DNA of 64,000 nucleotides from Gimesia fumaroli. Its GTDB lineage: Bacteria; Planctomycetota; Planctomycetia; Planctomycetales; Planctomycetaceae. The position numbers were made by a program, and so were the translations under genes. The stretch is taken from contig NZ_CP037452.1 of assembly GCF_007754425.1 (NCBI RefSeq), forward strand, positions 2,120,664 to 2,184,663, written 5' to 3'. Each line of letters opens with the position of its first letter. The stretch's first letter is position 1. Under the pieces are notes generated by a model. It made no database searches and was not told where the DNA came from. It saw only the letters and a program-made list of their open reading frames with translations. This document shows, one piece after another, positions 16,688 through 64,000 of the stretch.

Positions 16688-16705
16688 GCAAGTCTCGCCG
16701 GGCGG

Positions 16706-17362
16706 TTACTTTTCTGGTTTTGGAGTCGACTTAAGCATTTTATCAATCGTAGGTACGATATGTTTCTCGTACGTAAAACCTTCTTCTCCGTATTCCTGCT
16801 TTTCATTGTCGAATCGTTTTTTCAGCTTTCCATCAGGACCGTAGACATAGGCTGCCGGGATCGCTGCCAGATTCAGACTTTCATACAGCTCTTCATCGGG
16901 CGTACTGGAAATGAGGTTGATGATATCTGCTTTCTGTTTGGAATAGAATTCCATGAGTTCTTCACTGTTCGACTCGGGGGGAGAGTCTTTACTCCCGATA
17001 TAGTTCAGATTGAATGAGACGCAGACCACTTTTTCCGGATACTTCTTTTGTAACGCGACCAGCTGAGGGAATTCTCGTAGACAAGGTTCACACCAGGTCG
17101 ACCACAAATCAACGACGACAATTTTCCCCTTTTGCTTTTTGATGAATTCCTGTGCTTCTTCCCAGTTGGCAATTTCTGCCGTGACGCCATCTTTTTCAAA
17201 TGTTTTTGCGCCGGGAATGGCAGGTTCCTTTTTCTCGACCGTTGCCGGAGCAGTCTCTGGAGCCGCTTCTGTTTCAGGTGAAGTCGTGGGGGCAGGTGTG
17301 TTTTGATTGCAGCCGTGCAGCAGTATTAAACAGCATACAAAACAGAGCGATTTTGCTGACAT
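16706..17362 (-). CDS. TlpA-like thioredoxin-fold lipoprotein
   Basis: Membrane-anchored extracytoplasmic thiol-disulfide protein, 218 residues from the ATG at 17362. I prefer this start over an upstream GTG at 17401 because it gives a compact lipoprotein signal with lipobox LLHGC (Cys18). A Pro/Thr/Glu-rich linker (about 22-48) precedes the thioredoxin fold (about 60-215). The active site is WSTWCEPC (C91, C94), followed by LREFPQL, as in TlpA/ResA proteins that reduce apocytochrome cysteines or other periplasmic disulfides. The di-haem beta-propeller gene ends 50 bases upstream on the same strand, so the two are likely co-transcribed and this protein may help that cytochrome mature. That link is an inference. 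Confidence 0.9.
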   Translation of the reverse strand: MSAKSLCFVCCLILLHGCNQNTPAPTTSPETEAAPETAPATVEKKEPAIPGAKTFEKDGVTAEIANWEEAQEFIKKQKGKIVVVDLWSTWCEPCLREFPQLVALQKKYPEKVVCVSFNLNYIGSKDSPPESNSEELMEFYSKQKADIINLISSTPDEELYESLNLAAIPAAYVYGPDGKLKKRFDNEKQEYGEEGFTYEKHIVPTIDKMLKSTPKPEK

Positions 17363-17412
17363 AAGTAAAGTCTTTCTGGAAGTCGTCTTTTGGGGAAACA
17401 CGTGTTGGTTGA

Positions 17413-47803: not shown

Positions 47804-49030
47804 ATGAATTCTGAGAATCGAACAGAGATAATTTCAACAGATGTCGTTGCTACCGAGTGCATCACTCTGGAAGTGCTGGCGAGCCAGTTTGTCGATGAGC
47901 ATCGGCGGTGGTTAAATCCTTCTATCGAAACTTATGCCCTGACATATCCGGAATATGCTGTTGAGATTCGTGAGAGTTTCCCCGTCTTGATCGCGATGGA
48001 ACAGTGGAAGGGGAATCAGGAGTTTTCCAGTTTGCGACGGCAACTTCCTGAACCGGCCAGTATCAAACAGCTGGGGGATTGCCACATCACTCGCGAAATC
48101 AGCCGTAACCGAACTGCGATCGTATATGAAGCAGTGCAGGGGAAATGGAACCGCCGAGTATTAGTGAAACTGCTTCCCTGGAAATCAGAAATGACGCCAC
48201 GCTGGCAAGAACGGTTTGAGCGCGAAGCTCGTCTGGTTGCGCGGCTACGTCATCCGAATATCGTGTCGTTTTATAAATCGGGAGAAGATCAGGGATATTG
48301 TTATTCTGTCACGCAACAGGTCGATGGGGTTGGCCTGGATCAAATCATTGGGTACTTCGCAGATGAGACTCAGTCTTCTCAAAAGAATACCGGAAAACAG
48401 AAATGTCGTGATCAGACAGCAGCCATCGCATGCAGTTTGCAGGAAAATCGCTGGCGTGCCTTTACTGGTATCGCATTACAGGTAGCGGATGCTTTGAGAT
48501 ACGCGCACAGCCGCGAAACGTTACACAATGATCTGAAGCCGGAGAACATCTTAATTGATGCAGCAGGGCATGTCTGGGTCAATAATTTCAGTCTGGCCCA
48601 GTTTGCAGAAGGCGCACTCAAGCAGCAGTCGGCAAAGACATTGAGTTACCAGGCTCCCGAACGGTTTCAGGGACAGAATCATGAGCAAAGCGACATTTAT
48701 TCTTTGGGGATGGTGTTGTATGAACTGGCGACTCTCTCGCTGGCGTTCCCTTTTTCAAATTCAAGCGAACTCGTCGAGCAGATCTTAAATCAGGAACCGT
48801 TAAGACCACGCGCACTGAATCCTTCGATCCCCATCGATTTCGAATCCATCATTTTAAACTGCATCACAAAGTCACAGCAGCAGCGGTATCAATCCGTCGA
48901 AGCACTCAGTCTCGATCTTGTTCGATTGATTCATGGCAAATCTGTCAAGCGTCGCACAAGCTCTCCCGGCGTTTTCAACAGGAAGTGGTTTCCCTTCTGG
49001 AACCGCAATTCAGGTCAGCAGGCAAAATAG
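47804..49030 (+). CDS. Predicted pseudokinase, degenerate Ser/Thr kinase paralogue
   Basis: Cytoplasmic protein of 408 residues with a full Ser/Thr kinase fold that appears inactive. An N-terminal domain (about 20-75) matches the equivalent part of the kinase gene at 49068-51986. In the fold (about 90-395), the glycine loop GxGxxG reads SRNRTA (100-105) with no glycine. The lysine of the VAIK position remains (K122). The catalytic HRD is HND (H241, D243 kept) and the magnesium motif DFG is NFS (N261, F262, S263). Loss of the glycines and of the DFG aspartate predicts weak or no catalysis. No membrane segment was seen. It lies tail-to-tail with the active kinase, 37 bases apart. It may bind or regulate that kinase, but this is inferred. 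Confidence 0.85.
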   Translation: MNSENRTEIISTDVVATECITLEVLASQFVDEHRRWLNPSIETYALTYPEYAVEIRESFPVLIAMEQWKGNQEFSSLRRQLPEPASIKQLGDCHITREISRNRTAIVYEAVQGKWNRRVLVKLLPWKSEMTPRWQERFEREARLVARLRHPNIVSFYKSGEDQGYCYSVTQQVDGVGLDQIIGYFADETQSSQKNTGKQKCRDQTAAIACSLQENRWRAFTGIALQVADALRYAHSRETLHNDLKPENILIDAAGHVWVNNFSLAQFAEGALKQQSAKTLSYQAPERFQGQNHEQSDIYSLGMVLYELATLSLAFPFSNSSELVEQILNQEPLRPRALNPSIPIDFESIILNCITKSQQQRYQSVEALSLDLVRLIHGKSVKRRTSSPGVFNRKWFPFWNRNSGQQAK

Positions 49031-49067: not shown

Positions 49068-51986
49068 TCATCTGCGGAAGGGAGGCCCGTTCCTGTCACG
49101 TGGCCGCGGTGGCTGTCTGTTGTCTCGTGGGCGTGGTGGTCCGTCACCCCGCTGGGGCCGTCGATTTTGTTTAGGCCTGTGACGTACTGCCTCTGGGAAT
49201 TTGGATTTAAATTGCGCTTCATATTGATTGTATTTATCCCACAGCAGGATGCTATTCAGTTCATCTCCTGAATATTGATAAAGCTCAGAAAGCTTCTCTG
49301 TGGCATTCAGCAGGGTCTCATAGATGTCAGCAGACTCTGATTGTGTTTTCTGCCCTGTTTCCAGAATCTTGATGGCATCTTCCATGAGTGGAATTGCTTC
49401 TGCTTCACTCCCTTTTCTTTCCAGAATATTTGCCAGCATGATTTCAAACCTGGCTAGCCAGGTTTGATGTTCTGGCACTTCCGGAAATTGGTCCGCGAGT
49501 TCTCTCTGTAATCTGATGGCAGTTCTCAACGAGCGTTCGCCTGTATCATGGCGAAGTCGTACTTTGTTTGAATCCGGACTTCCATCAGTCAAAATATCCA
49601 TTGCATGCGCCAGTTTATTATGGGCATGGATCAGCGAGATTTTGTATTCCGGGATCGTTGGATAATCGGAAACCAGGCGGCTGGCATGTTGAATCGCGTT
49701 TTGCAGACGTTTCGCAATGGTCTCTTCAATGTCCCTGGGAGTTGCATTGCGAAGCTCGATTCGCTCATAGGTTTTCACCACAGCCTGTCGATAGTCGGCA
49801 ACATGCGGATATTCTCGAACCAGGTTCTCCAGAATTTGAAGCACGCGCGCCTGTTTTTCTGTATCCGCCTGAGATTGCGGATATTGATTTGAGATTTGTT
49901 CCTGCAGACAGAGGGCCAGTAAGTAGCGATACTCCGGTTTCGCATGATCGGAATTCACTAGCGGCTCCAGGATATCAATGGCCTTCTGCGAGAGAGCCTG
50001 ATTCGCCTCTGATTCGTCTTCCGTTGCAGGGAAGCGAGGCGCCTGATGAGGAACAGAGTGTAGTTTCACTTGACCGGGACGTACTTTATGCGACATCAGA
50101 AAATAGGAACGTGCCAGTTCAAACCGGAGCGCAGGTTGATCCGGGTTTATAGCGAGTTCCTGTTTCAGCAACTGCTCCGCTTTCTGATAGGAATCCTTGG
50201 CAGCCGTCAGTTGATTCAGGTACCAGTGAATTCGACCGATTTCATTGAAGAGTGTGGCAATCGTGAGCGGATCTGCTTCAACCGAGTTTTGATTGTACAT
50301 TTCGAGCGATTTTTGATACGCGGCAAGTGCTGATTGATAATCTCCCAGTCGGCGATGAATGTCGCCGACCTTGTGCTGTGCATTGGCCGCTTTGATTTGA
50401 AATTCGCGTTGTGATCCTGTTGATTCGGCCAATTGTTCATAGAACTGAATCATTCCTGCCAGCAAATCAGCTGATTCCCGGGACAAGACCGGTTCTGAAT
50501 AGTCGGCTGCCGACGCGTTGCTTTCTGTTGACTGGGCACGGCTGGGGACAAATCGATTGAATACGCGATCCAGGGCTGCAGTCGCAAGTTGAGCTGATGC
50601 TTCTGCTCGCTTTCGCTCCCGTCGTTCATTTTCAAATCCGACTGCCAGTGAGATTCCCAGCAGTAGCAGCAGGCTTAATGCAATTCCGGATAAGCTGGCA
50701 ATCGCCGGGTTACGACGGCTCCAGCGCCACAACTGCTCGAAGAGGGTCACGCGTCTGGCACGGATCGGCCGATTTTCGAGAAATCGATTCAGGTCATCTG
50801 CCAGGTCGCTGGCCTTTTGGTAACGATGCTTCGTATCTGCTGCAATGGCCTTCTGGATGATCGTTTCCAGATCGCGGGGAATTTCGGGATTGATCCGTCT
50901 GAGCGGTGGAATCGCCCCCCGCGTAATCAGTTCGATCATTGCATGGCGGCTGGTGCGTTCAATTGCGGGACGTTTAGTTAACAGTTCGTAAAGTGTAATT
51001 CCGAGACCATAGATATCACTCTGGCGGCAGGTTTCGCCTCGAAACATTTCGGGCGCCATATAACCGAGTGTGCCTGCCATGTCGGTGGATTTACTCAGAT
51101 CGCTCTGTTCAGCCGCACGTGCCAGTCCAAAGTCCGTGATGCAGAGCAGACCATCGCGGTCTAAAAGTAAATTTCCAGGCTTGATGTCACGATGTAAAAT
51201 ACCGCGATCATGTGCATGTTGGAGCGCATTCGCGGCCTGAATGCCGAGCGCTGCAATATTTTGAGGAGAGCCGACATACTTATCAAATTCTGGACCAATG
51301 TTATGGGGATGCTTCGGTTCGTTTGGCAGATTCACTTGCGAGTCATCGCTGTGAGAAAGTGAAGTGTCACTGCCGGCCTGTGTCAGAGAATTATTTCCTG
51401 CTGCGATCTGTTTCAACTCGCTGTCGACAGCAGTGACCACGATTTTCTGTGTCAGTTCATCCAGACCAACGCCTTCAATCAATTGCATCACATAGTAGTG
51501 AAAACCGCTATTCTCGCCGACACCGAAGACCGGTACGATGTTGGTGTGATGTAGTGAAGCCGTCAATTCGGCTTCCCGGCGAAAACGCCTCAGTTGTTTC
51601 TCATCCATCAGCGAATGACGCGGTAACAGTTTCAATGCGACCCGCCGATTGAGTGATTCCTGGATGGCTTCATAGACCACACCCATGCCACCTCGCCCAA
51701 TTTCCCGGACGATTTTAAAGTCACCCAGCTGCTGTGGTGTGCTGGCGCCTAAGGAGACTTTTCCATGAGACTGGTCGGCATGTTTTCCACCTTCCAAAGC
51801 AGCAATAGCAGGAAAGAATTCTGCAATCTCACTGGCAAAATCAGGGTGGCGTTTTGCGTATTCAGAAACCTCAGGCTTCTCGCCGTTCCGAATCTGACTG
51901 ATAAATTCATCAGCGATTTGTTCCAGATCAGGCTGATCCGGAGGCGTCAGATTCTTCGTGGCATGATTTGAATCGGGAGATAACAC
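49068..51986 (-). CDS. Ser/Thr protein kinase with TPR receptor-like C-terminus
   Basis: Membrane kinase of 972 residues (GTG start with AGGACAG upstream). An N-terminal region (about 20-68) is shared with the pseudokinase gene. The kinase domain (about 88-405) has intact motifs: GRGGMG (97-102), K119, HRD with D267, and DFG with D285. An insert of about 50 residues lies between the lobes (about 185-235). One membrane segment is at about 430-450. The outside part is TPR-like helical repeats (about 500-900), then a Pro/Arg-rich tail with PRPRDR-type repeats (about 935-972), which probably binds partners or nucleic acid. An ECF sigma gene lies upstream on the same strand, 56 bases away. This is the common planctomycete arrangement of ECF sigma followed by kinase, where the kinase may control sigma activity. 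Confidence 0.94.
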   Translation of the reverse strand: MLSPDSNHATKNLTPPDQPDLEQIADEFISQIRNGEKPEVSEYAKRHPDFASEIAEFFPAIAALEGGKHADQSHGKVSLGASTPQQLGDFKIVREIGRGGMGVVYEAIQESLNRRVALKLLPRHSLMDEKQLRRFRREAELTASLHHTNIVPVFGVGENSGFHYYVMQLIEGVGLDELTQKIVVTAVDSELKQIAAGNNSLTQAGSDTSLSHSDDSQVNLPNEPKHPHNIGPEFDKYVGSPQNIAALGIQAANALQHAHDRGILHRDIKPGNLLLDRDGLLCITDFGLARAAEQSDLSKSTDMAGTLGYMAPEMFRGETCRQSDIYGLGITLYELLTKRPAIERTSRHAMIELITRGAIPPLRRINPEIPRDLETIIQKAIAADTKHRYQKASDLADDLNRFLENRPIRARRVTLFEQLWRWSRRNPAIASLSGIALSLLLLLGISLAVGFENERRERKRAEASAQLATAALDRVFNRFVPSRAQSTESNASAADYSEPVLSRESADLLAGMIQFYEQLAESTGSQREFQIKAANAQHKVGDIHRRLGDYQSALAAYQKSLEMYNQNSVEADPLTIATLFNEIGRIHWYLNQLTAAKDSYQKAEQLLKQELAINPDQPALRFELARSYFLMSHKVRPGQVKLHSVPHQAPRFPATEDESEANQALSQKAIDILEPLVNSDHAKPEYRYLLALCLQEQISNQYPQSQADTEKQARVLQILENLVREYPHVADYRQAVVKTYERIELRNATPRDIEETIAKRLQNAIQHASRLVSDYPTIPEYKISLIHAHNKLAHAMDILTDGSPDSNKVRLRHDTGERSLRTAIRLQRELADQFPEVPEHQTWLARFEIMLANILERKGSEAEAIPLMEDAIKILETGQKTQSESADIYETLLNATEKLSELYQYSGDELNSILLWDKYNQYEAQFKSKFPEAVRHRPKQNRRPQRGDGPPRPRDNRQPPRPRDRNGPPFRR

Positions 51987-52042: not shown

Positions 52043-52675
52043 TTACTCTATGATACCGGGAATTTGTACCAGTATGGAGCGTAATCTGGTTAAGGCGCGG
52101 AAATATCTCATACTTGCTGTTTTGGGTTCGATTTCAAGTACTTCCGATGCTTCCAGGTTTGATAATTCTTCAAAATGACGCAGCACTAAAATCTCGCGAT
52201 CAATTTCATTCAGGCTTTCCAGAGCCTCATGTAATTGTGCGGCCAGTTCTTCTTTGAGCGCGGCCTGACTCGGAGACGTCATGTCGCCCAGCAAGACATC
52301 GGCGATTTGAAACGAAGTGGATGCGGAAAACACTCTCCGCTTCGCTTTGACTTCTCGTCTGACATCTCGTTTTTGCGCTCCCAGATGACGGCGGTGTACG
52401 TCGATCAAAGTTTGTCCGATGATGGTTCGCAGCCAGATGAAAAATGTGGTCGCCGGGTCATTCAGATAATGTTCAATCCGTGTGGCCGCATCGAGATACG
52501 CTTCTTGCAGAATATCATCCGCATCAACTCGACCGAGCAGACGCCGATCAAGCCGAAAATTAACAATTCGCCACAGACGGTCTCGGTACTGGTTATATTC
52601 TTCCGCAAGCACGCCTTCCGGGTCCTGCCGTAACCGGTTCAGAAAATTCTCTTGATCTTCGTGCTCATCCAACAA
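52043..52675 (-). CDS. ECF-type RNA polymerase sigma factor
   Basis: Sigma-70-family ECF sigma factor of 210 residues. The start is TTG, supported by GGGAG just upstream. Region 2 is at about 24-95, including the RLWRIVNFRLDRRL and DADDILQEAYLDA segments that contact core polymerase and the -10. Region 4 is at about 145-205, with the helix-turn-helix NLEASEVLEIEPKTASMRYFRALTRLR. A lysine/arginine-rich linker lies between. It is followed 56 bases downstream on the same strand by the TPR kinase gene and is almost certainly co-transcribed. No anti-sigma gene is present, which fits a kinase-linked control mode. The target promoters are unknown. Confidence 0.94.
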   Translation of the reverse strand: MLDEHEDQENFLNRLRQDPEGVLAEEYNQYRDRLWRIVNFRLDRRLLGRVDADDILQEAYLDAATRIEHYLNDPATTFFIWLRTIIGQTLIDVHRRHLGAQKRDVRREVKAKRRVFSASTSFQIADVLLGDMTSPSQAALKEELAAQLHEALESLNEIDREILVLRHFEELSNLEASEVLEIEPKTASMRYFRALTRLRSILVQIPGIIE

Positions 52676-54537: not shown

Positions 54538-56463
54538 TTAGGGAATACAGACGGTATCCACTTTTTCATATAACACCATGTGGCCGTCGACAACGCCATC
54601 CGCAACATCGCGGGCAGACATGCCATAGTCAAACCCGACGTCCGAGATTTCATGTACTAAATTCACAGGCACCATGCCTGCAATCAGTTGCACGCGAATC
54701 GTATAGTTTCCCGGTCCCGTGAGTTGTTTTCGGGAAACATGATAGTTCGCCAGTCGATTGCTTCTGGGGGGAATGTTTTGTTTTTGCTTGCGTGCTCCAA
54801 TGGGACGACCCAAAACAGTAAACGGGCGCGTAGCCGGTCGGAAGTAAGGCAGTGGGTCGAGAGAGTAGGGCACATTCAAAACCTGCTCACGTTCGCCCCC
54901 CCGAATGTTTCGGGTAATGAACCGTGATTGCAGAGTGAATAATTGTCGGTCAATCGGGATTTTTCCGTTGTGCACATAGAGAGAGTGAGAGTCGCGAATA
55001 TCGCCGTTCGGGTCGAGGTCACCTGATTGGAAAACAAGTTGCCCATTTTGATCCCAGACCATGGTTCGTAAAAATACAACGCGTTCCGCATCAAATCCGG
55101 TGGGAACGCCATGGCCCAGTGTGATATTGGAAACGGGAACTGAAAAATCCAGTCCATACCATTTTGCTTTTTCAACTTGAATTTCGCCCAGGTGATAGCC
55201 GGCTCTTAACAGCTGTAATCTCTGAGTCGCCGCTTCTCCCAGCAATTCGTATTGATCATTTAGAATAAGCCGTGCCTTGATTCGTGTGACTTGATTGTCC
55301 CAGGGAGGTGGAAAGTAAGTCTCTTTCATCACGTGTTTTTCAAATTCAGGCGTACCCCAGCCGGCGGCATCATCGAAGTAAAGCCATTCCCGCATCGTGG
55401 CGAGCCCCTGATCGGGAGAGGGCTGCGAATTTTCTTCTTTGATCGCTTGGGGGTTATGCGGAAAAAGGCCACGATGAATAATCGGATAGTCAGGGCCAAT
55501 CATCATATGATTTGTATGTTTACGAACCGGTGTCGGCACATTCCCCACAATGGCAGCAGGAGAGAAGGTGTATCCCGAGGGGATGCCTGGAACGGCACCC
55601 ATATGACAATCCTGACAGTTTTCTTTGCACTGCTTGGCGGATGGTGAGTGTTTAAATTCACTGAAGGCGTCCTCCAGTCGGAAGCCGTTCGGCGCAAACA
55701 CATCATGACAACTGCCGCAGAATCCTGGCGTCGTTAATTGGAAAAATTCATAGGCTTCCGCATGGATGGCACGACCTCGAATTGAAGGATCTTTGGACGT
55801 TTTCAGAACACCATATTTATCCGGATTTGCCAGAACTTCTGCCAGAATTTCTCCACCCGACGGCCCAAAGACTGCCTGGTTAATATCTCCACTCACCAGA
55901 GCCTGTCGACCTGCGATTCCTTTCCCCCACGCCTGATTGATGCGATGGCAGGTCACACAGGTTACACCTTCACGTGAGGAAGGGGGGCGGTCCAGATTAC
56001 TCATGTTGATCGGCTCAGATAAAGCCATGCCGACGGGAGTATGGCAGCGAATGCAAAAATCACCCAGTGTGCCATTATTTAGTTTGATCAGTTTGTTCGA
56101 CATTGCGTTAAACACAGGACTTAACTGTGCGTAAGCATGCGGTGATACCGACCATTCACGATAATGCTGAGGATGACATTTGCCACATTTAGAGGCGGAA
56201 GGGAAGGGATCATCTTCATAACACTCAGCATGGGCCTGATCAACGGCAGATTGCATGAGTTGCTCAAGCTTGGTGGTCGTTGAGGTCCTGGTACTGCTCA
56301 CTGTGGCTGAAGCGGTTTGCGAACTGGCCTGCCTGATCTGATTTTTATTCTCGGCTTGTGCGTACTGGAAATAGATGTTCGGGAGAAGAATGATCATAAC
56401 CACGACCATAAACGCTAGAAAGCGCCAGACACTATTTTGGCTCCTGCGAGGAGAGGACTCCAT
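54538..56463 (-). CDS. Pentahaem c-type cytochrome
   Basis: Membrane-anchored or exported multihaem cytochrome of 641 residues. A hydrophobic segment at about 12-30 is an uncleaved anchor or signal. Five CxxCH haem motifs are visible: C93/C96/H97, C137/C140/H141, C169/C172/H173, C249/C252/H253 and C283/C286/H287. The haem region spans about 90-290; the remaining 350 residues have no haem motif and include a beta-rich C-terminal part, a structure also seen in planctomycete cytochromes of unknown role. A His-rich span (about 313-322) may provide sixth ligands. The following gene, 15 bases away, encodes the barrel-like protein, and co-transcription is likely. Confidence 0.92.
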   Translation of the reverse strand: MESSPRRSQNSVWRFLAFMVVVMIILLPNIYFQYAQAENKNQIRQASSQTASATVSSTRTSTTTKLEQLMQSAVDQAHAECYEDDPFPSASKCGKCHPQHYREWSVSPHAYAQLSPVFNAMSNKLIKLNNGTLGDFCIRCHTPVGMALSEPINMSNLDRPPSSREGVTCVTCHRINQAWGKGIAGRQALVSGDINQAVFGPSGGEILAEVLANPDKYGVLKTSKDPSIRGRAIHAEAYEFFQLTTPGFCGSCHDVFAPNGFRLEDAFSEFKHSPSAKQCKENCQDCHMGAVPGIPSGYTFSPAAIVGNVPTPVRKHTNHMMIGPDYPIIHRGLFPHNPQAIKEENSQPSPDQGLATMREWLYFDDAAGWGTPEFEKHVMKETYFPPPWDNQVTRIKARLILNDQYELLGEAATQRLQLLRAGYHLGEIQVEKAKWYGLDFSVPVSNITLGHGVPTGFDAERVVFLRTMVWDQNGQLVFQSGDLDPNGDIRDSHSLYVHNGKIPIDRQLFTLQSRFITRNIRGGEREQVLNVPYSLDPLPYFRPATRPFTVLGRPIGARKQKQNIPPRSNRLANYHVSRKQLTGPGNYTIRVQLIAGMVPVNLVHEISDVGFDYGMSARDVADGVVDGHMVLYEKVDTVCIP

Positions 56464-56715: not shown

Positions 56716-58458
56716 TCATTTCTTGAGTGTGACCACGCCATCCCAGTCAAAGGGCGCTTTGTAATTTTGACTGGCAATCTGGAGCAGTAGAAAGTCTCTT
56801 GCACGATCTTTGGGGGGCAAATGTCCTAACAGATCAAGCGAACTGTCCCAGTCTCCATCAATGAATGCATCGACGGCTGCTTCAAAGTCTTTAATATTCT
56901 GATTCGAAATCGAACTTTTCCCTTCTGAGGGTAATAATTCGTAAACCGAAAGCGGGGCTTCTAATCCAGGGGGACGAAATAAACCGAGGTGCCGACAACG
57001 CCCTTCAGACTCGGGAAGCAGATTTCGTACATCAGCAGCAGTCGCTTCATCAATCAGAATTGGAACCCCCAATTGCTTTGTCATTCCCTCCAGGCGAGAG
57101 GCCAGGTTGACTACAGGGCCAAAAACCCCTACTTTCGCCTGTTCTCGGGTTCCAATTTTCCCGGCAATCGCATTTCCACGTGTGATGCCGATTCCGACTT
57201 CGAAGCCACTCAACTCATTAAAATGAGTACTGTTCGAAATCTTGAACATCTGGTGAATCTGCAACGCCGCCCGGCACGCTGGAAGGGCTCCTTTTGAAAG
57301 TGGCAAAGGCCACCCCCAGAAACCAAGAGCACTATCTCCCTGAAAGTCTGCGATGACCCCATTCTGACTACTGATACTTTGAGTCATGACTCCCAGAGCA
57401 TTCTTCAAGCGGTCCAGAAACAATTGCAGATTTTTCCCTGCCTGTTCTGTCATATGAGAGAAGCGCCGCAGGTCGCAAAATAAGACGGCTGTTTCTGTTT
57501 CCGTCGGTTCCAGTGTATGTTTTGCATTTTCCTCTGAGACGACTTTGATAATTGCCGGAGAGAAAAACTGTTCTATTCCGGAAAATCGGTCTTCCAGTTT
57601 CCGTACACGACGAATGGCAGACAACATATGCGCCAGCAATTCAACAAGATTCAAATCATCCTGCAAATCATTCGTAGATAAATAGGCCTGTGAAGGCGAT
57701 TCTTCACCAAAACGACCACAGATGTAAAGGCACCATTTCTGATTTCCCTCCGTTTTGACTGGTGTGCAGAATGCCCACCGGCCATTGGCGAGCGGTGTCC
57801 CTTTGCGACTGCTTTCCACTTCGATGGCAGTCTCGCCTTTTCGGATGGTGTCACGAACCAGCGATCTGATGATCGTAACGCGCCGAAAACCGGGAACGGG
57901 TTGTTCCCAATGGGCGACATTCCACTTTTTCGGACCATCGCTTTGGATGACAGCCACGACGTCTGCATGTGGCATCACATCCTTAAGTAGCAAAGCCGCC
58001 TGTTTTGCAAGGTTTCCTTCATCTTTACAAAGCCATAAGCTGGGGACGGCTTTGGTGACCGTTTCGATTCGAAGATCAGTAACCCGTAGACTGGCCTCAG
58101 TTAAAATTCCAGAGTCGGTATCCAGATCCTCCAAAATCTCCAAAACGCCAGAATTGGATGATCGTTCTATCGACTGAAACTGAGTCTCACCAATCTGGAA
58201 TGTATCTCCCACTGATATCGTCAGCTCAGTATGAAATTGCTCGTCAAACTTGATTTGATTCAGTACACTTGGAAAGCAGCGAATATTCAGTTGATCTTCG
58301 TTGCGTTGGAATTCAGCATGCATACGAGAAATGGTAGAATCCCAGGGGATGGCACAATCGTTGTCAGCGCTCCGACCTAACAACATTTTTTGCGATTCAG
58401 GAATATGCCATTCAATTTTTTCGCCCGGCCTTGGTCCTTTTGCAATGAGATGTATCAT
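56716..58458 (-). CDS. FHA domain/class III nucleotide cyclase
   Basis: Cytoplasmic signalling protein of 580 residues from the ATG at 58458 (AGGACC upstream); a longer start at 58506 lacks a site. An N-terminal FHA phosphothreonine-binding domain (about 1-100) has the GRS and SRMHAEF motifs. A GAF-like sensor domain covers about 140-285. A helix leads to the class III cyclase domain (about 320-500): metal aspartates D329 (FCDLRRF) and D375 (QGD), and the VNLASR segment with N451 and R455. The lysine that usually selects adenine just before the GD motif is replaced by Asp (ADFQGD), so the product, cAMP or cGMP or neither, is uncertain. FHA suggests input from nearby Ser/Thr kinases. It is divergent from the redox operon. 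Confidence 0.9.
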   Translation of the reverse strand: MIHLIAKGPRPGEKIEWHIPESQKMLLGRSADNDCAIPWDSTISRMHAEFQRNEDQLNIRCFPSVLNQIKFDEQFHTELTISVGDTFQIGETQFQSIERSSNSGVLEILEDLDTDSGILTEASLRVTDLRIETVTKAVPSLWLCKDEGNLAKQAALLLKDVMPHADVVAVIQSDGPKKWNVAHWEQPVPGFRRVTIIRSLVRDTIRKGETAIEVESSRKGTPLANGRWAFCTPVKTEGNQKWCLYICGRFGEESPSQAYLSTNDLQDDLNLVELLAHMLSAIRRVRKLEDRFSGIEQFFSPAIIKVVSEENAKHTLEPTETETAVLFCDLRRFSHMTEQAGKNLQLFLDRLKNALGVMTQSISSQNGVIADFQGDSALGFWGWPLPLSKGALPACRAALQIHQMFKISNSTHFNELSGFEVGIGITRGNAIAGKIGTREQAKVGVFGPVVNLASRLEGMTKQLGVPILIDEATAADVRNLLPESEGRCRHLGLFRPPGLEAPLSVYELLPSEGKSSISNQNIKDFEAAVDAFIDGDWDSSLDLLGHLPPKDRARDFLLLQIASQNYKAPFDWDGVVTLKK

Positions 58459-58788
58459 TGGGTAGGTCCTGTTAATCGTCTGTCTCTCGGAGGTTGTGCT
58501 TTGCATAGGATTGACAATGAGGGTTCGGACATGTTTGAATTAATAAAGATCACAGGGCCCTACCTTTTAAACGGATATTCTGACGGGCGGTAACCGCTCT
58601 TCATCCAATTAGTCAGAAAATCTTCAAACTAGTCACCAGAATCGCGTAGTAATACAAGTAGTCTATTCGTTAATTTATCAGAGTCGTCTTGTTTTCGCAT
58701 GGTACTCTAAGGCGTGATTTTAAGAGACTTTTGGCTTATTAACGACCATTACAATCCTTAAAATTACTCTAGCTCATCTCCCATTCAC

Positions 58789-60000
58789 ATGCAAAGAAAG
58801 TTTCACAGAATGAATCTCGCCGATCGCAGATTTCGCTCTCTCAAACCAGCTAATTGCCTGTTCACTCTGATGGTGGTTTGCCTGATCCTGCAAGCCGTTG
58901 TTTCCGTCTGTTCTGAGAAGATGTACGCCACCGAACCTGCGGCTTCTGCCACCTCATTTGTGTCGACCGACGCCAAGTCAAAAGCAGAACAAACAAAAAA
59001 AACGATGGGGGTTGTCGCAGCAGATTGTAAGAAGTGTCATCCTTCTGAAGTCGCAGCCTGGATGAAAACAGTCCACTTTCAATCTCCAGATGAACGTCTC
59101 TATAAATTTGAAGGGAACACAAAGAAATACGCAACCGCAATGGGACTGACCAGTGCTGACTTACAAGGGGATTCCATGTGCGCGGACTGTCATGGCACCA
59201 AGGCAGTTCGAGACGGAAAGGTTAAAGTGATTTCTGGAGTTTCGTGTGAAAAGTGCCATGGTGCTGCCGGCGGAGAGGATGGCTGGCTCAATCGTCATCA
59301 GTCGTATCATGAGAATATGCCGATCACCCGTGCAGAAGAAACTCCGGAACATAGGGCAGAGCGGCTCAAGTTTTGTGACCAGGCTGGCATGAAACGGTCG
59401 TCCGATATTTATGGTTTGTCCAAATCCTGTTTTAAATGTCATATCGTTGGAAATGAAAAACTGATCGCCGCAGGACATAAGGCTGCAAGTGCCTTCGATT
59501 TTGTTTCCTGGACGGGGGGAGAAGTAAAACATAATTTCCTCGTTGACAAAACCAAAAATGCCGATGCTCCTTCATTGTGGATGGAGCGAACCGGAGGGAC
59601 TGCAGAAAATCGTCGGCGAATGAAGTTTGTTGTTGGTACTCTGGTGCAATTAGAAACCGCACTCCGAGCACGGGCCAATGCAACAAACCCCGCTGTGATT
59701 CCTCAAATTAGTGGTATTATCGCGGCTGCAAACGGTAAGCTGTCTCAGATCAATGCCGCTGCTCCCACGCCGGAAGTACAAGCAGTAATCAATCTCATCA
59801 CACCTATGTTCGGAACCCTGTTCGCGCCACTGCCCACGGATAAAGAGACTTATACGAAAGCAGCCGATGAAGTCGCAGAACAGGCCAAACTGTTTTCCAG
59901 GAAATATGATGGCGCAGACTTTCCCAAGCTCGATTCTGTGATCAAGCGATATCCACCACATTATTCTCAGCAGTTCCAGGATAAGTATCTGAATAAATAA
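58789..60000 (+). CDS. Tetrahaem c-type cytochrome (cytochrome c-554-like)
   Basis: Exported cytochrome of 403 residues, the first gene of the redox operon. A signal or anchor segment lies at about 22-40. Four CxxCH motifs occur: C80/C83/H84, C131/C134/H135, C153/C156/H157 and C214/C217/H218. The spacing and the HPSEVAAWMKTVH segment resemble cytochrome c-554-type proteins, which pass electrons in the periplasm. The C-terminal part (about 260-400) is helical and has no haem. The next gene, a cyclic-nucleotide-binding/ferredoxin protein, starts 43 bases downstream, so they form an operon. Confidence 0.93.
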   Translation: MQRKFHRMNLADRRFRSLKPANCLFTLMVVCLILQAVVSVCSEKMYATEPAASATSFVSTDAKSKAEQTKKTMGVVAADCKKCHPSEVAAWMKTVHFQSPDERLYKFEGNTKKYATAMGLTSADLQGDSMCADCHGTKAVRDGKVKVISGVSCEKCHGAAGGEDGWLNRHQSYHENMPITRAEETPEHRAERLKFCDQAGMKRSSDIYGLSKSCFKCHIVGNEKLIAAGHKAASAFDFVSWTGGEVKHNFLVDKTKNADAPSLWMERTGGTAENRRRMKFVVGTLVQLETALRARANATNPAVIPQISGIIAAANGKLSQINAAAPTPEVQAVINLITPMFGTLFAPLPTDKETYTKAADEVAEQAKLFSRKYDGADFPKLDSVIKRYPPHYSQQFQDKYLNK

Positions 60001-60042
60001 GAAGTTTCAACCAGTTCCACGCAAGCAACAAGTTGTACTCCA

Positions 60043-61782
60043 ATGTCAGAACCTTCTATTTCACGTCCGCGGCGCTGGGATAAACCTTTCTCGCTCGAAC
60101 CAGGCAGCGAGGATGAAATGACCGATACCGCTGTGGAAATTCTGCTGGGAAAACCACCTTTTTCAGAGATTGATCCTGCAGGATTTAAACGATCTCTGCC
60201 ACTGCATGACATCATTAAGAACGATGCGCGGATTATTGGATTTGACGATGGAGACATCGTTGTACGGCGGGGAGACTGGGGAAATTCAGCTTTCTTTATT
60301 TTGTCTGGAAATGTGCGTGTCGGGCTGGAAAGAGGAAAACCAACTCTTCCTGATGAAATCCTGGGGCGGCACGATAATAAGGTCAAAACCCTGTGGGAAT
60401 CTTTCGCACAACTCTGGCGAAATCATAGTGTACCTGAAGTTCGTAAACTTGATTCGGTGTTCTCTAAGTCTGAATTGAAAACACGTCACGCACATAACAG
60501 CACTCGAATCTATCTTCAGGAAGTTTCGGCCGTTCTCGATAAATACCACACGGCACGGCTTGATGCCGGCCATTGGTTTGGTGAACTTGCAGCGCTGGGG
60601 CGAACCAGTCGTGTTGCCACAGTATTTTCGGAAGGAGTTTCACAGCTCCTTGAAATTCGCTGGCAAGGGATTCGGGATATTCTGCGTCATGATCAGAACG
60701 GAAAACTGAAACAATATATAGAGGATGCTTTCCGCGAACGGGCTCTGGCTGCCTTCCTGCGAACAACTCCCTTGTTTCATGATTGCCAGCCAGAATTGAT
60801 GCAACGGATTGTAGATCAGGTTGAATTTCATACATTTGGTAACTACGACTCTCCGAAACCGTTTAAGGACTTAATCGAGAATCAGGATCATACGACCGAG
60901 GGCGGGGAACCAGTGATAATTCGCGAAGGCGATTATCCCAGTGGCATCGTGATGATTCGTAGCGGCTTAGCCCGCATCAGTCAGCGGCACTATAACGGCC
61001 GACGTACGGTTGGTTATTTATCTCCCGGTCAAATCTTTGGCCTGGATGAAATTCGAGCTGAAGTACAATCGCTGACTCCAGTTGGTTGCAGCACACAACT
61101 GAGTGCGATTGGGCATTTGAACGCGGTACTTGTACCGACGGCACTTGTTGAGGAATTACTCAAACAAAACGGCTCTGTTGGGGCCGCAGATCTGCATGAA
61201 GTTAAAACGCACGTTTCTGATTCAGGTAGTAACTCGGTTAAGATCAACGATGATACACTGCTTAGTCAGCTGGTCGATCAGAATTTTGTACAAGGAACAT
61301 CGCTGATGGTGATCGACCTTGAACGTTGTACACGCTGTGATGATTGTGTCCGCGCCTGCTCAACCGCTCATGACAATAATCCCCGGTTTATTCGTCATGG
61401 GCCCATTCTTAATCAATATATGGTCCCCAATTCCTGCCTGCATTGTGTGGATCCCATCTGCATGATTGAATGCCCTACAGGTGCAATCTTTCGCGATTTT
61501 GCTCAAGGTGATATCATCATCAACGAACAAACCTGTATTGGTTGTGCCCAGTGTGCCAGCAACTGTCCATTTGATGCGATTCGTATGGTTGATATCCGAG
61601 ATTCCAAAGGAAATATTATCGTTGATTCCAAAACGCGTTCACCGCTGACTCAAGCTACAAAGTGCGATTTATGTATCGACCAGAAAGGCGGACCAGCCTG
61701 CGAACGTGCTTGCCCTCATGACGCACTCTTTCGTGTGGACATGCAAGATGCGGCCCAGGTGGGAGAGGCGTTTTCGCGATGA
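60043..61782 (+). CDS. Cyclic-nucleotide-binding/4x[4Fe-4S] ferredoxin fusion protein
   Basis: Soluble protein of 579 residues joining signalling and redox parts. Two cyclic-nucleotide-binding (CAP-type) domains are visible: the first at about 40-230, with segments such as DGDIVVRRGDWGNSAFFILSG and a roughly 50-residue insert; the second at about 245-385, with EPVIIREGDYPSGIVMIRSG and GYLSPGQIFGLDEI. The C-terminus (about 420-565) has four cysteine clusters typical of four [4Fe-4S] ferredoxins, like DmsB/NrfC subunits: C429/C432/C435/C439, then CLHCVDPICMIECP, CIGCAQCASNCP and CDLCIDQKGGPACERACP. The next gene overlaps by 4 bases (ATGA), so translation is coupled. It should carry electrons and could be gated by a cyclic nucleotide. 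No catalytic subunit lies in the window. Confidence 0.93.
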   Translation: MSEPSISRPRRWDKPFSLEPGSEDEMTDTAVEILLGKPPFSEIDPAGFKRSLPLHDIIKNDARIIGFDDGDIVVRRGDWGNSAFFILSGNVRVGLERGKPTLPDEILGRHDNKVKTLWESFAQLWRNHSVPEVRKLDSVFSKSELKTRHAHNSTRIYLQEVSAVLDKYHTARLDAGHWFGELAALGRTSRVATVFSEGVSQLLEIRWQGIRDILRHDQNGKLKQYIEDAFRERALAAFLRTTPLFHDCQPELMQRIVDQVEFHTFGNYDSPKPFKDLIENQDHTTEGGEPVIIREGDYPSGIVMIRSGLARISQRHYNGRRTVGYLSPGQIFGLDEIRAEVQSLTPVGCSTQLSAIGHLNAVLVPTALVEELLKQNGSVGAADLHEVKTHVSDSGSNSVKINDDTLLSQLVDQNFVQGTSLMVIDLERCTRCDDCVRACSTAHDNNPRFIRHGPILNQYMVPNSCLHCVDPICMIECPTGAIFRDFAQGDIIINEQTCIGCAQCASNCPFDAIRMVDIRDSKGNIIVDSKTRSPLTQATKCDLCIDQKGGPACERACPHDALFRVDMQDAAQVGEAFSR

Positions 61783-62603
61783 AACACTTTTGGGTGCAAC
61801 AAAGAATCACTTTTTTGGTATTCACGGTGATTTCTCTGCTGATTCTCGCGGGGTGCTATTTATTTTCGATTACTCTTTCGAAGACTTCATTCGCCAGTGG
61901 AACAATTTTGCTGCTTTGTATTTTCTTTCTGGCCAGTTATCAGCTGCGAAAAAAAATATCATTTCTGCCATTGGGAAGCAGTGCTGCCTGGCTGCGTTTC
62001 CACATTTTTATTGGTTTCCTGTCGTTTGTCGTCTTTGCATTACATAGCAGACTGCAGATTCCAAATGGTCTATTGGAAGTTATTCTTTTTCTCACGTATT
62101 ACATCGTGTTTTTAAGTGGTATCTTTGGTTGGTTTCTGTCTCGTACGATTCCCTACCGACTCCTCTCGCGTGGTGAAGAAGTGCTGTTTGAACGAATTCC
62201 GATGCACCGAAACAAAATTCATGATCGAGTCAAGACGCTGATATTTGACGATGCGCAGCCAGAGCAAGGGGCCGCACTCCCTGATTTCTATCACAAACAC
62301 TTACAGGAATTCTTTGAAGGGCCTCGTCACCAGATCAGTCATATTCTGCATTCGGAACGACATCTGCATCAACTCAAACAGAAAATTTCTGCACTACAAC
62401 CGTTTCTTGATGAACAGGAGCAGGTGAGGCTACAACAAATCGCAGAGCAGATTCAGTTGAAAGATGATCTCGATTACCAGTATATTTTTCAGGCCATTAT
62501 CAAATTGTGGCTCTTCGTGCATGTGCCTTTAACCTATTCCCTGATCATTTTTTCTTTATATCACGCGCTTGCTGCCTGTGCGTTTGCGAGTACCAGTGGA
62601 TGA
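61779..62603 (+). CDS. Di-haem b-type membrane protein (quinone-reacting candidate)
   Basis: Integral membrane protein of 274 residues with about five hydrophobic segments (about 9-30, 40-55, 70-88, 97-120 and 243-268). Two histidine pairs look like b-haem ligands: H75 and H89 (14 apart), and the two histidines of HVPLTYSLIIFSLYH near 248 and 262 (14 apart). This is the spacing of bis-His b-type cytochromes such as ferric-reductase-like or DmsC/NrfD-like subunits. A soluble helical loop with charged residues (about 140-240) separates the segments. The 4-base overlaps with genes on both sides show translational coupling. A quinone or quinol site is plausible. The haem assignment is by motif only. 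Confidence 0.75.
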   Translation: MKHFWVQQRITFLVFTVISLLILAGCYLFSITLSKTSFASGTILLLCIFFLASYQLRKKISFLPLGSSAAWLRFHIFIGFLSFVVFALHSRLQIPNGLLEVILFLTYYIVFLSGIFGWFLSRTIPYRLLSRGEEVLFERIPMHRNKIHDRVKTLIFDDAQPEQGAALPDFYHKHLQEFFEGPRHQISHILHSERHLHQLKQKISALQPFLDEQEQVRLQQIAEQIQLKDDLDYQYIFQAIIKLWLFVHVPLTYSLIIFSLYHALAACAFASTSG

Positions 62604-64000
62604 CCGAACCGTTGCAACCCTTCGACTGGAAGAACAGTAATTACGAACGACCAGCAAACACCTGGGTTTGTGGTCGGTTGTGCGAGGAAGGTTTGCCTTG
62701 TCGGCTGGGGCCGAGCAACAAGGGAGAATGCCAGCTTCAAAGCCAGTGCGAGCCTGCTGAGAAAGGCGGGAAATATCAGTGTACCCGTTCCGTGTTAAAT
62801 GGGGGGAAGTGTAAGGAAGGCCCGGCACCCGATGGAACCTGCTGTCAGCCTGATACCAGTTGTCAGCCTCGTCGCAGTCTCTTAGCCAGGCGACGGTTTC
62901 TGGGTGGACTTGCCGCGTTCATTGCCGCTTCGTTTTGTCTCATTGTTTTCAGCGGTGACTCTCCCTCCTCGCTTCTCTCACCAGGAGAAGTTTCCCAATC
63001 GCACGCCAATATTGAATCGAGCTGTAGTGCCTGCCATACTGCCGCCGAAGGAGGCCTTGATACCTGGATTCATCTGACGATGAATGGTGATGTTGCCCTC
63101 GATGATTCAGCACGGTGCTTGAAATGTCATACAGAACTGGGAGAAAAAGCACTGTTTGCCCACAGCGTGTCTATTGAGCGATTACACAAAATAACCAGTC
63201 AAATTCAGGCAAAGAAGGAATCAGCGTCGGCCCCCATTGCGCTGCAGCTGGCATCACTCACAGGACACCCTGCTACGAACGGAAAACTTGCCTGTTCAAC
63301 CTGTCACCAGGAGCATCATGGACGAAAGACCAATCTCACACAATTAACAGACTTACAATGCCAGTCCTGTCATACCAGTCCGTTTTTAAGTTTCCAGCAT
63401 GGCCATCCTGCGTTAGGAGACTATCCTTACCAACGTCGCTCGCGGATTTATTTCGATCATAACGCGCACATGAGTCGTTATTTCAAAAATGGAGATTTCA
63501 AACGGACCATGCCCAAGGGGCACAAACCGGAATCCTGCAATTCTTGTCATACACCTGATGCCACAGGCCGTTTGATGTTGACTGCTGGCTTTGAAAAGAC
63601 CTGCGCCAGTTGTCATGAGCCGCAAATTGAAGATGTCGATTTTCCAGGCGTTCCTTTTTTTGCACTGCCAGTCATTGCTCCCACATTAATGAAGTCACAG
63701 GGAGTCTGGCCCAATACCGAGGGATCTTTCGCCACAGCCAGATTACCTCGACTGATGGAACTCTTGCTGGAACATGATTCCGACTATCAAAGAGCCATCA
63801 AACAACTGGGAGAGATTGATTACCGCAATCTGAATAATTTTGATCCAGAAAAAGCAGCAGCTGTTGCAGAAATTGCCTGGGCCATTAAACGATTACTCTA
63901 CGATATTTCCACATCAGGGGAAGCGGCGTTAACTGCACGTCTGGGGAAAAACAGTGCGCTCTATCTGCATCTTAAGCCGTCTATCGTTCCTACATTATCA
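62600..64000 (+). CDS. Multihaem cytochrome c with Cys-rich N-terminus (partial, cut at window end)
   Basis: Start ATG at 62600 overlaps the stop of the previous gene (ATGA); the frame stays open for 467 codons to the window edge, so the 3' end is missing. Residues about 20-90 hold ten cysteines (24, 28, 34, 44, 50, 61, 71, 81, 82, 88) before a basic RR-rich stretch and a membrane segment (about 98-117). By the positive-inside rule they face the cytoplasm. Six CxxCH motifs follow on the outside: C142/145/H146, C173/176/H177, C232/235/H236, C254/257/H258, C313/316/H317 and C335/338/H339. This architecture could pass electrons across the membrane. The N-terminal cysteines could bind an Fe-S or metal cluster, but no standard motif is visible. 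Confidence 0.88.
   Translation, partial: MTEPLQPFDWKNSNYERPANTWVCGRLCEEGLPCRLGPSNKGECQLQSQCEPAEKGGKYQCTRSVLNGGKCKEGPAPDGTCCQPDTSCQPRRSLLARRRFLGGLAAFIAASFCLIVFSGDSPSSLLSPGEVSQSHANIESSCSACHTAAEGGLDTWIHLTMNGDVALDDSARCLKCHTELGEKALFAHSVSIERLHKITSQIQAKKESASAPIALQLASLTGHPATNGKLACSTCHQEHHGRKTNLTQLTDLQCQSCHTSPFLSFQHGHPALGDYPYQRRSRIYFDHNAHMSRYFKNGDFKRTMPKGHKPESCNSCHTPDATGRLMLTAGFEKTCASCHEPQIEDVDFPGVPFFALPVIAPTLMKSQGVWPNTEGSFATARLPRLMELLLEHDSDYQRAIKQLGEIDYRNLNNFDPEKAAAVAEIAWAIKRLLYDISTSGEAALTARLGKNSALYLHLKPSIVPTLS

Follow-up and report, generated by a model that had tools for sequence, protein, structure and literature searches.

A divergent cyclase and redox operon in Gimesia fumaroli

In a 64,000-nucleotide stretch of the Gimesia fumaroli chromosome (bases 2120664-2184663 of the 7.70 Mb single-contig genome; hereafter, the window), a gene for a class III nucleotidyl cyclase lies back to back with a redox operon of four genes. 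These encode a tetrahaem c-type cytochrome (TetraC), a fusion of two cyclic nucleotide-binding (CNB) domains with a ferredoxin predicted to hold four [4Fe-4S] clusters (CNBFd), a putative dihaem b-type membrane protein (Memb) and a membrane-anchored multihaem cytochrome (MHC). An earlier reading of the same DNA, to which we refer as the original prediction, had listed these parts, and all of them were recovered: four CXXCH motifs in TetraC, the two CNB domains and four-cluster ferredoxin of CNBFd, four invariant His in the membrane protein and ten CXXCH motifs in MHC. Behind the cyclase, on the cyclase strand and outside that prediction, lie genes for a pentahaem cytochrome (MHC2) and a predicted outer-membrane beta-barrel, which are often members of the cluster. 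We propose that the cluster may constitute a conduit for electrons across the membrane, equipped with a cyclic-nucleotide receptor of its own.

The features of the locus are collected in Table 1; the last gene, cut by the window end, was read onward from the genome, and all coordinates are window positions. Two 4-base overlaps (61779-61782 and 62600-62603) link CNBFd, Memb and MHC when the MHC start is set at ATG 62600, the start common to relatives; the mechanical open reading frame (ORF) begins at GTG 62507. Overlaps of this length had been claimed for three of the four genes, and the chain of three stands; the spacing from TetraC to CNBFd is a 42-base gap.

Table 1. Genes, domains and sites of the locus, in window positions
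Feature	Positions	Strand	Basis
Outer-membrane beta-barrel (porin-like) protein, predicted, N-terminal signal-like segment	52873-54522	-	AlphaFold, Foldseek PDB
MHC2, pentahaem c-type cytochrome, Cytochrome_C554-like, N-terminal anchor or signal	54538-56463	-	CXXCH count, Pfam, hydropathy
Class III nucleotidyl cyclase, N-terminal FHA, divergent from operon	56716-58506	-	PF00211, PF00498, residues, PDB match
Catalytic domain of cyclase, residues 320-530 (stretch searched)	56917-57549	-	Pfam, residues, PDB match
FHA domain of cyclase, residues 42-106	58189-58383	-	Pfam
Divergent intergenic region, cyclase/operon	58507-58788	.	CRP-site scan
TetraC, tetrahaem c-type cytochrome, probably exported	58789-60000	+	CXXCH count, Pfam, hydropathy
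CNBFd, CNB-CNB-ferredoxin fusion, predicted cytoplasmic, 4 x [4Fe-4S]	60043-61782	+	Pfam, alignment
CNB1 phosphate-binding cassette, residues 179-193, FGELAALGRTSRVAT	60577-60621	+	G180, E181, R190 invariant
CNB2 region, residues 291-355, cassette degenerate in window protein	60913-61107	+	Pfam, alignment
DmsB/HydN-like ferredoxin domain, 16 cluster Cys, residues 423-570	61309-61752	+	Pfam, NCBIfam, alignment
Memb, putative dihaem b-type membrane protein, five membrane helices and helical soluble insert	61779-62603	+	Invariant His, model
MHC, membrane-anchored decahaem cytochrome (in order: Cys-rich N-terminal segment, one hydrophobic segment, ten CXXCH); window end cuts gene, full gene to 64726	62600-64000	+	CXXCH count, hydropathy

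Distribution and core of the cluster

A protein search of 392 planctomycete-phylum genomes (E<=1e-30) found CNBFd relatives in 62 of them, most of the phylum being without CNBFd. Neighbourhoods were read in 59 of the 62 genomes (G013, G154 and G173 were left out); second CNBFd places, present in several genomes, were left out here and from the counts of cyclase distance. To these we added a named set, the best 80 of 530 relatives from a genome scan, which leans to close relatives. Nearly all named loci come from metagenome bins, and the titles of these metagenome-assembled genomes (MAGs) assign them to Planctomycetota, Verrucomicrobiota, Alphaproteobacteria, Nitrospinota (Nitrospina), SAR324, Omnitrophota, Elusimicrobiota and others. 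The CNBFd tree, a quick tree with some long branches, holds 134 rows: four named loci that duplicate phylum loci were dropped from it (one of the four, L118, was kept in the 80 and in the 39 cyclase rows described below), L072 and L192 gave no usable ferredoxin ORF, and L101, too short for the tree, was counted among the 54 non-genus phylum loci. No virus-borne copy of CNBFd was confirmed in the viral contigs scanned.

Conservation of the gene order elsewhere, on which the original prediction had laid weight, was observed where CNBFd occurs. Among the named loci (n=80, any ORF, contig ends included), 77 carry Memb, 74 MHC, 73 TetraC, 66 a flavoprotein gene (FNR, see below), 33 MHC2 and 32 the barrel; the corresponding numbers for the close-clade phylum loci (n=34) are 32 for Memb, 32 for MHC, 31 for TetraC and 23 each for MHC2 and the barrel. 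CNBFd, Memb and MHC, the last three genes of the operon, are the core of the cluster. Just downstream of the operon at one locus (L009:10505-19861, minus strand), the translation reads as a repetitive secreted-looking protein of >3100 residues with a metalloprotease-like end (HELGHTLGYDD).

A ferredoxin with a putative cyclic-nucleotide receptor

CNBFd matched the cNMP_binding family in Pfam (PF00027, E 4e-21, three stretches) as well as several Fer4 families. Each of its 16 cluster Cys was kept in at least 132 of the 134 aligned homologues, as befits a four-cluster ferredoxin domain, and since the protein has no hydrophobic segment, it should be cytoplasmic. The ferredoxin part resembles HydN, DsrO, DmsB and NrfC through matches below cut-off, none of the 25 NCBIfam models listed (of 74) reaching its cut-off. 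Membership of a molybdoenzyme or NrfD complex was considered and rejected, because neither a catalytic molybdopterin subunit nor an NrfD-type membrane partner was found among the seven cluster proteins scanned (Pfam, E<=1 for NrfD; NCBIfam); the lack of a molybdopterin subunit had been noted in the original prediction.

The same prediction had named the phosphate-binding cassettes as a decisive point. The cassette of CNB1 is intact, with G180, E181 and R190 present in all 134 homologues of the alignment, and this invariance speaks for a ligand with a cyclic phosphate; it supports CNB1 as an intact-looking, putative cyclic-nucleotide receptor. When the cassette was sought with a regular expression, 8 of the 134 homologues escaped; we attribute this to the expression, given that in the alignment every one has G, E and R in these columns. 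The residue following the cassette Arg is Thr or Ser in 112 of the 134 homologues (Val in the window protein); Thr or Ser at this place resembles cGMP-type cassettes, a likeness not used here as a main argument.

A putative dihaem membrane protein

Four His of Memb, H75 (62001-62003), H89 (62043-62045), H248 (62520-62522) and H262 (62562-62564), were invariant in all 46 aligned sequences and make two pairs, the members of each 14 residues apart, which is the spacing of His pairs in dihaem b cytochromes. In the structural model (predicted local distance difference test score, pLDDT, 92), H75 and H89 lie on one membrane helix and H248 and H262 on another, with a helical soluble insert, residues 121-240, between them. 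These features agree with the b-haem-like membrane protein of the original prediction, and we regard Memb as a putative dihaem b-type protein whose cytoplasmic side is suggested by R57-K59.

Memb had no Pfam match below E 0.06, a weak hint to cytochrome b561 appearing at E 0.25, and its model had no Foldseek match in the PDB at E<=1e-3. VIA-align returned sensor helical bundles (TorS, McpS) with Z up to 11.1 at a root-mean-square deviation of 7-9 Angstrom, which we take to reflect an arrangement common among helical bundles; no cytochrome fold was among these VIA-align matches, which in itself proves nothing.

Multihaem cytochromes and a predicted outer-membrane barrel

Haem numbers given here are counts of CXXCH motifs only: four in TetraC, five in MHC2 and ten in MHC. 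TetraC and MHC2 matched PF13435 (E 8e-11 and 6e-8, respectively) and carry a hydrophobic segment at residues 23-41 and a hydropathy segment at residues 12-30, respectively. Ten CXXCH motifs were present in 65 of 71 MHC sequences (our own and 70 named), and six were counted in three rows, contig ends being unchecked. The hydrophobic segment of MHC spans residues 102-120 of a 710-residue reading that starts two residues before the ATG, and the arginines preceding it suggest on which side of the membrane each part of the protein lies. A Cys-rich stretch before this segment was found in 58 of the 71 sequences with an ad hoc pattern; in the window (62600-62920) it shows a repeated C..GP...G.C pattern without Pfam match and may serve, on the cytoplasmic side, to bind metal or clusters.

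For the barrel protein, neither Pfam (E<=1) nor NCBIfam (E<=0.1) gave a match. Its AlphaFold model (pLDDT 78) contains 19 strands of at least seven residues, and the Foldseek matches in the PDB are barrels of the MOMP, OprD and AlgE kinds (best E 1.5e-12). A predicted outer-membrane barrel encoded beside a multihaem cytochrome is the arrangement of Mtr-type porin-cytochrome systems, and in six of the seven operon-bearing members of the genus, MHC2 and the barrel adjoin the cyclase.

The multihaem proteins might also form a terminal periplasmic or surface reductase of the C554, nitrite or tetrathionate type that acts on a soluble acceptor, in which case the cluster would be a respiratory enzyme instead of an extracellular conduit and the barrel a substrate pore. 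TetraC and MHC2 do match Cytochrome_C554 in Pfam, with weak, below-cut-off NCBIfam matches to NrfH, NrfB and cytochrome c-550 CycA; the barrel appears closer to OprD/AlgE/MOMP porins than to MtrB, a large barrel of 26 strands that holds a decahaem cytochrome; and neither MHC2 nor the barrel was found in the distant clade of the CNBFd tree. However, no reductase model reached its cut-off for the cluster cytochromes, the evidence for whose haems consists of CXXCH counts, and we consider a terminal reductase possible but doubtful.

Apparently exchangeable electron input

In other lineages, the cluster includes a gene for an FAD/NAD(P)/2Fe-2S reductase (FNR) with an N-terminal hydrophobic segment, present in 20 of the 34 close-clade phylum loci and in none of the 25 distant-clade loci; the clusters of Fuerstiella and ZRK34 are examples that have it. 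Beside CNBFd in 8 of these 25 lies instead a gene for a NuoE-NuoF-like fusion (NuoEF), two of which were confirmed in Pfam and the rest by similarity to those two. Two unrelated types of NAD(P)H dehydrogenase at one cluster argue for electron exchange between CNBFd and NAD(P)H. The original prediction had envisaged a new kind of oxidoreductase or a conduit; because many relatives have an input enzyme at the cluster, it looks more like a conduit whose input can be exchanged than like a lone oxidoreductase. We hold the conduit part of our proposal, leading from NAD(P)H or ferredoxin to multihaem cytochromes, to be probable.

At one locus (L050:12375-13991, minus strand), the flavin reductase has an FHA domain inserted between its N-terminal anchor and the NAD-binding part, which is a second meeting of phospho-peptide recognition with the conduit cluster. 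The gene at the same place in L051, the locus of Candidatus Uabimicrobium amorphum (the same as L133), is of equal length.

The same chain could in principle run inward: reduced iron, sulfur or a partner cell would act as the outside donor to the multihaem chain, the flavoprotein would reduce NAD(P)+, and the cyclic nucleotide would limit costly reverse flow. Such flavoproteins, FNR and NuoEF alike, can work in both directions, and MAGs titled Nitrospina and Alphaproteobacteria contain the same parts. Many carriers, however, belong to groups generally held to be heterotrophic, and the loci examined showed no recognisable enzyme dedicated to oxidising a donor, most neighbours there being unannotated. 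We consider inward flow quite improbable.

Linkage of the cyclase to the operon

The original prediction of a class III cyclase with an FHA domain, divergent from the operon, was confirmed in Pfam (PF00211, E 7e-9; FHA, PF00498, E 3e-6). The GAF domain ascribed to the same protein stays unconfirmed: Pfam gave no GAF match at E<=1, and the segment aligns weakly (P 0.016) with five other linked cyclases, of which L126 matches GAF and L087 does so below cut-off.

PF00211 has two matches in the genome, one of them the window cyclase. Within the genus, an orthologue of this cyclase (78-100% identity) lies beside the operon in all seven genomes with the operon and is missing from the two without it (G238 and G385), whereas a paralogue of 39-40% identity is present in all nine. 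Some relative of the cyclase was found in each of the 27 family genomes searched, and hence the wider cyclase family is not bound to the operon. The original prediction had asked whether the cyclase is regularly found without the operon, and the answer is divided: the orthologue tracks the operon, and the paralogue and the wider family do not.

Outside the genus, PF00211 genes, all verified with Pfam, are found at 7 of the 54 phylum loci, where the density of such genes in the same genomes predicts 0.74 (Poisson tail near 1e-5, calculated by hand and ignoring kinship). In the named set, 24 of 80 loci have a cyclase, against about 1.1 expected at the same density, and 21 of 77 do so without the three Gimesia loci. 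Linkage is thus about 10-fold or more above the density expectation. On the CNBFd tree, 36 of the 134 rows have a class III cyclase no more than about 8 kb from CNBFd, and this distribution requires at least 13 gains or losses, 9 of them forced by well-supported branches.

The linked cyclases are of several architectures: FHA-cyclase, GAF-cyclase (L126), CHASE2-cyclase (L149, a bin that nests among Verrucomicrobiota), 7TMR-DISM-cyclase (L169, a SAR324 bin) and cyclase-FHA (L097), the last being the closest-packed, 34 bases upstream on the same strand. In addition, two class III cyclases (L186:5430-7439 and 16282-18390) flank a verrucomicrobial cluster, one with a His-Gly and the other with an Asn-Thr base pair.

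Adjacency by chance, or by hitch-hiking within the genus, is very improbable and was already disfavoured by these observations. It would fit the cyclase relatives found in all 27 family genomes, with or without the operon, and the eight linked cyclases without the Gly signature discussed below, and some of the linked cyclases, for example those of L070, L101 and L185, may be there by chance. The excess of observed over expected linkage outside the genus and in the named set, the variety of cyclase architectures and the joint presence and absence within the genus all speak against it.

Next to the MHC2 and barrel genes, translations also point to a sigma-factor-like gene (52043-52675) and protein kinase-like genes (49068-51986 and 47804-49030), whose kinases the FHA domain of the cyclase could read. 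A 793-residue ORF (45107-47488) reads, from its translation, as a Ser/Thr protein kinase with a membrane segment and an apparent periplasmic amino-acid-receptor domain.

Identity of the nucleotide

The window cyclase keeps both metal-binding Asp and the Asn-Arg transition-state pair, as class III cyclases do. Its base-recognition positions are occupied by Asp (in place of Lys) and Gly, and not by the Lys and Asp/Thr pair of adenylyl cyclases; since these residues are not of the adenylyl type, cyclic AMP (cAMP) cannot be assumed. We compared 39 rows of linked cyclases from 38 loci (one duplicate, ten Gimesia, related rows included, the unlinked paralogue excluded), of which 38 have the first metal Asp, 39 the second, 35 the Asn and 38 the Arg. 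Gly at the second base position was present in 31 of the 39 linked cyclases versus 1 of 20 controls, which were hand-picked, lean to high-scoring cyclases and were taken as unlinked by contig and coordinates, with surroundings read for L215 only.

Most linked cyclases have an acid/His-Gly base pair like that of Cya2 of Synechocystis, which is also the closest solved match to the catalytic domain of the window cyclase (2w01, E 3.3e-13). Cya2 is described, in the available parts of two sources, as a guanylyl cyclase with an E-G base pair (PMC4215837, PMC5995499). The window cyclase shares the Gly and has Asp in place of the Glu. These residues give a hint that the product may be cyclic GMP (cGMP), with GTP as the substrate.

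Proposed mechanism and its weighing

From the parts, their conservation, the gene linkage and the binding-site and catalytic residues, all read from sequences, we infer a complex that might work as follows. A cytoplasmic reductant would reduce the four [4Fe-4S] clusters of CNBFd: NAD(P)H through the dedicated flavoprotein in many relatives, and ferredoxin or another donor in the genus Gimesia, which has no such flavoprotein at the locus. Electrons would cross the membrane through the two b haems of Memb, probably held by H75/H248 and H89/H262, to the anchored decahaem MHC, and then move via TetraC and MHC2 towards the outer-membrane barrel. The neighbouring FHA-cyclase, itself set by Ser/Thr kinases through its FHA domain, would produce a cyclic nucleotide, plausibly cGMP. 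Bound to CNB1, this nucleotide would change the docking or activity of CNBFd, so that flow is switched directly and not by transcription.

Direct gating appears the likeliest mode of action of the nucleotide, and we lean, if only slightly, towards the conduit together with such gating. The most specific version, in which a co-inherited guanylyl cyclase resembling Cya2 supplies cGMP to the CNB domains of CNBFd, and its binding turns on or off an electron path that starts at NAD(P)H or ferredoxin and reaches the decahaem chain by way of a new dihaem b protein, is tentative and, taken as a whole, doubtful.

Several observations weigh against this interpretation or parts of it. In the distant-clade phylum loci (n=25), Memb was found in 18, MHC in 16 and TetraC in 11, MHC2 and the barrel in none, so that the outer part looks like an add-on; of the seven genus members, one (L045) likewise has neither MHC2 nor the barrel beside the operon. 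As for the input, 31 of the 59 phylum loci on the tree have neither FNR nor NuoEF in the stretch read (28 have either), and the genus of the window is among those lacking both at the locus, the best FNR-like matches elsewhere in the genus being weak or common to genomes without the operon.

A local cyclase is not obligatory: in 98 of the 134 tree rows, the stretch read contains none, and these rows take in all those of Alphaproteobacteria, Nitrospina and Opitutaceae as well as the whole of family f20 (12 rows). Of the seven non-genus cyclase loci, one (L101) has a 237-residue match confined to the ferredoxin region. The closest-packed linked cyclase (L097) has Glu for the first metal Asp, and 8 of the 39 linked cyclases do not have Gly at the second base position, a signature whose contrast with the controls is tempered by the hand-picking. 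The Asp at the first base position is shared by the unlinked paralogue, and family-wide the paralogues with this Asp have Thr or Ser at the second. Finally, CNB2 of the window protein does not bear out the intact cassettes on which the original prediction depended; it reads FGLDEIRAE...STQLSAIG instead of FGE...R.A and is degenerate in the window's clade; most of the distant clade shows FGE...R in the alignment, where CNB2 looks intact.

These last points would suit a real conduit whose CNB pair is merely structural or serves oligomerisation, while the cyclase acts globally or on transcription via CRP-type proteins. Rows without a nearby cyclase and the degenerate CNB2 fit such an arrangement; five further CNB places exist in the genome besides the three in the CNBFd gene, and control of an electron-transfer pathway by cAMP-CRP is known for the mtr genes of Shewanella (available part of PMC4417206). 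The invariance of the CNB1 cassette in 134 of 134 homologues is, however, difficult to account for unless a ligand is bound. Transcriptional control through an E. coli-type CRP site was rejected, as the divergent intergenic region contains no match within 2 mismatches to the E. coli-type consensus, the only site type that the scan covered; window-wide, matches to it are at chance level (33 versus 31). Alignment of the intergenic regions of the seven genus members showed no conserved palindrome, as judged by eye. Overall, we consider a purely structural CNB pair unlikely and retain direct gating of the conduit as the favoured interpretation.

Relation to known systems and significance

In the literature searched, we found no description of a CNB-ferredoxin conduit cluster. 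The Hmc and Tmc complexes of Desulfovibrio, as described in the available part of PMC4215793, are alike in combining an outside multihaem cytochrome with membrane subunits and a proposed electron exchange with the cytoplasm, and in having no catalytic subunit of their own. According to the same part of that source (PMC4215793), one subunit of Hmc carries 16 haems and another is NrfD-like, whereas NrfD had no match at E<=1 among the seven proteins scanned here; neither a CNB domain nor a cyclase is described there, whereas here the ferredoxin carries CNB domains. Memb differs further in having no Pfam match below E 0.06.

MtrAB of Shewanella and the porin-multihaem cytochrome clusters of Verrucomicrobia likewise place multihaem cytochromes beside an outer-membrane barrel, with a decahaem cytochrome in the set (available part of PMC5615132). 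The verrucomicrobial cytochromes adjoining the porin have eight haem sites in that account (PMC5615132), against five here. Moreover, the barrel model of our cluster resembles OprD, AlgE and MOMP, and the input would be through a CNB-ferredoxin and a putative dihaem b protein.

The present proposal shares with Rnf-MmcA of Methanosarcina a ferredoxin-linked electron transfer across the membrane to a multihaem cytochrome. It differs in that the seven cluster proteins matched no Rnf model (Pfam, E<=1) and in the cyclic-nucleotide receptor. To our knowledge, no Hmc/Tmc, porin-cytochrome or Rnf-MmcA system has a cyclic-nucleotide receptor fused to a redox subunit. For Planctomycetes, a table in the available part of PMC6295460 has a row with two CbcL/MtoC/MtrH homologues.

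Cya2 and the window cyclase are alike in the catalytic domain, for which Cya2 is the closest solved one, and in the Gly at the second base position. They differ at the first position (Glu versus Asp here) and in the accessory domain, which is CHASE2 in Cya2 (available part of PMC5995499) and FHA here; the linked cyclase of L149 is of the CHASE2 type.

The published cyclic-nucleotide control of extracellular electron transfer that we found, that of the mtr pathway of Shewanella, acts via a transcription factor, cAMP-CRP, as set out in the available part of PMC4417206; in the cluster described here, the putative receptor domain is fused to the redox protein itself. If our interpretation is correct, a redox protein that carries its own receptor and occurs in several phyla would represent a new, direct regulation of respiration, an electron counterpart of the cyclic nucleotide-gated channel. 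It would also give a role to one planctomycete FHA-cyclase, bring in a membrane b protein for which no solved relative was recognised, and provide an apparently undescribed route from NAD(P)H to multihaem cytochromes with two interchangeable input enzymes.

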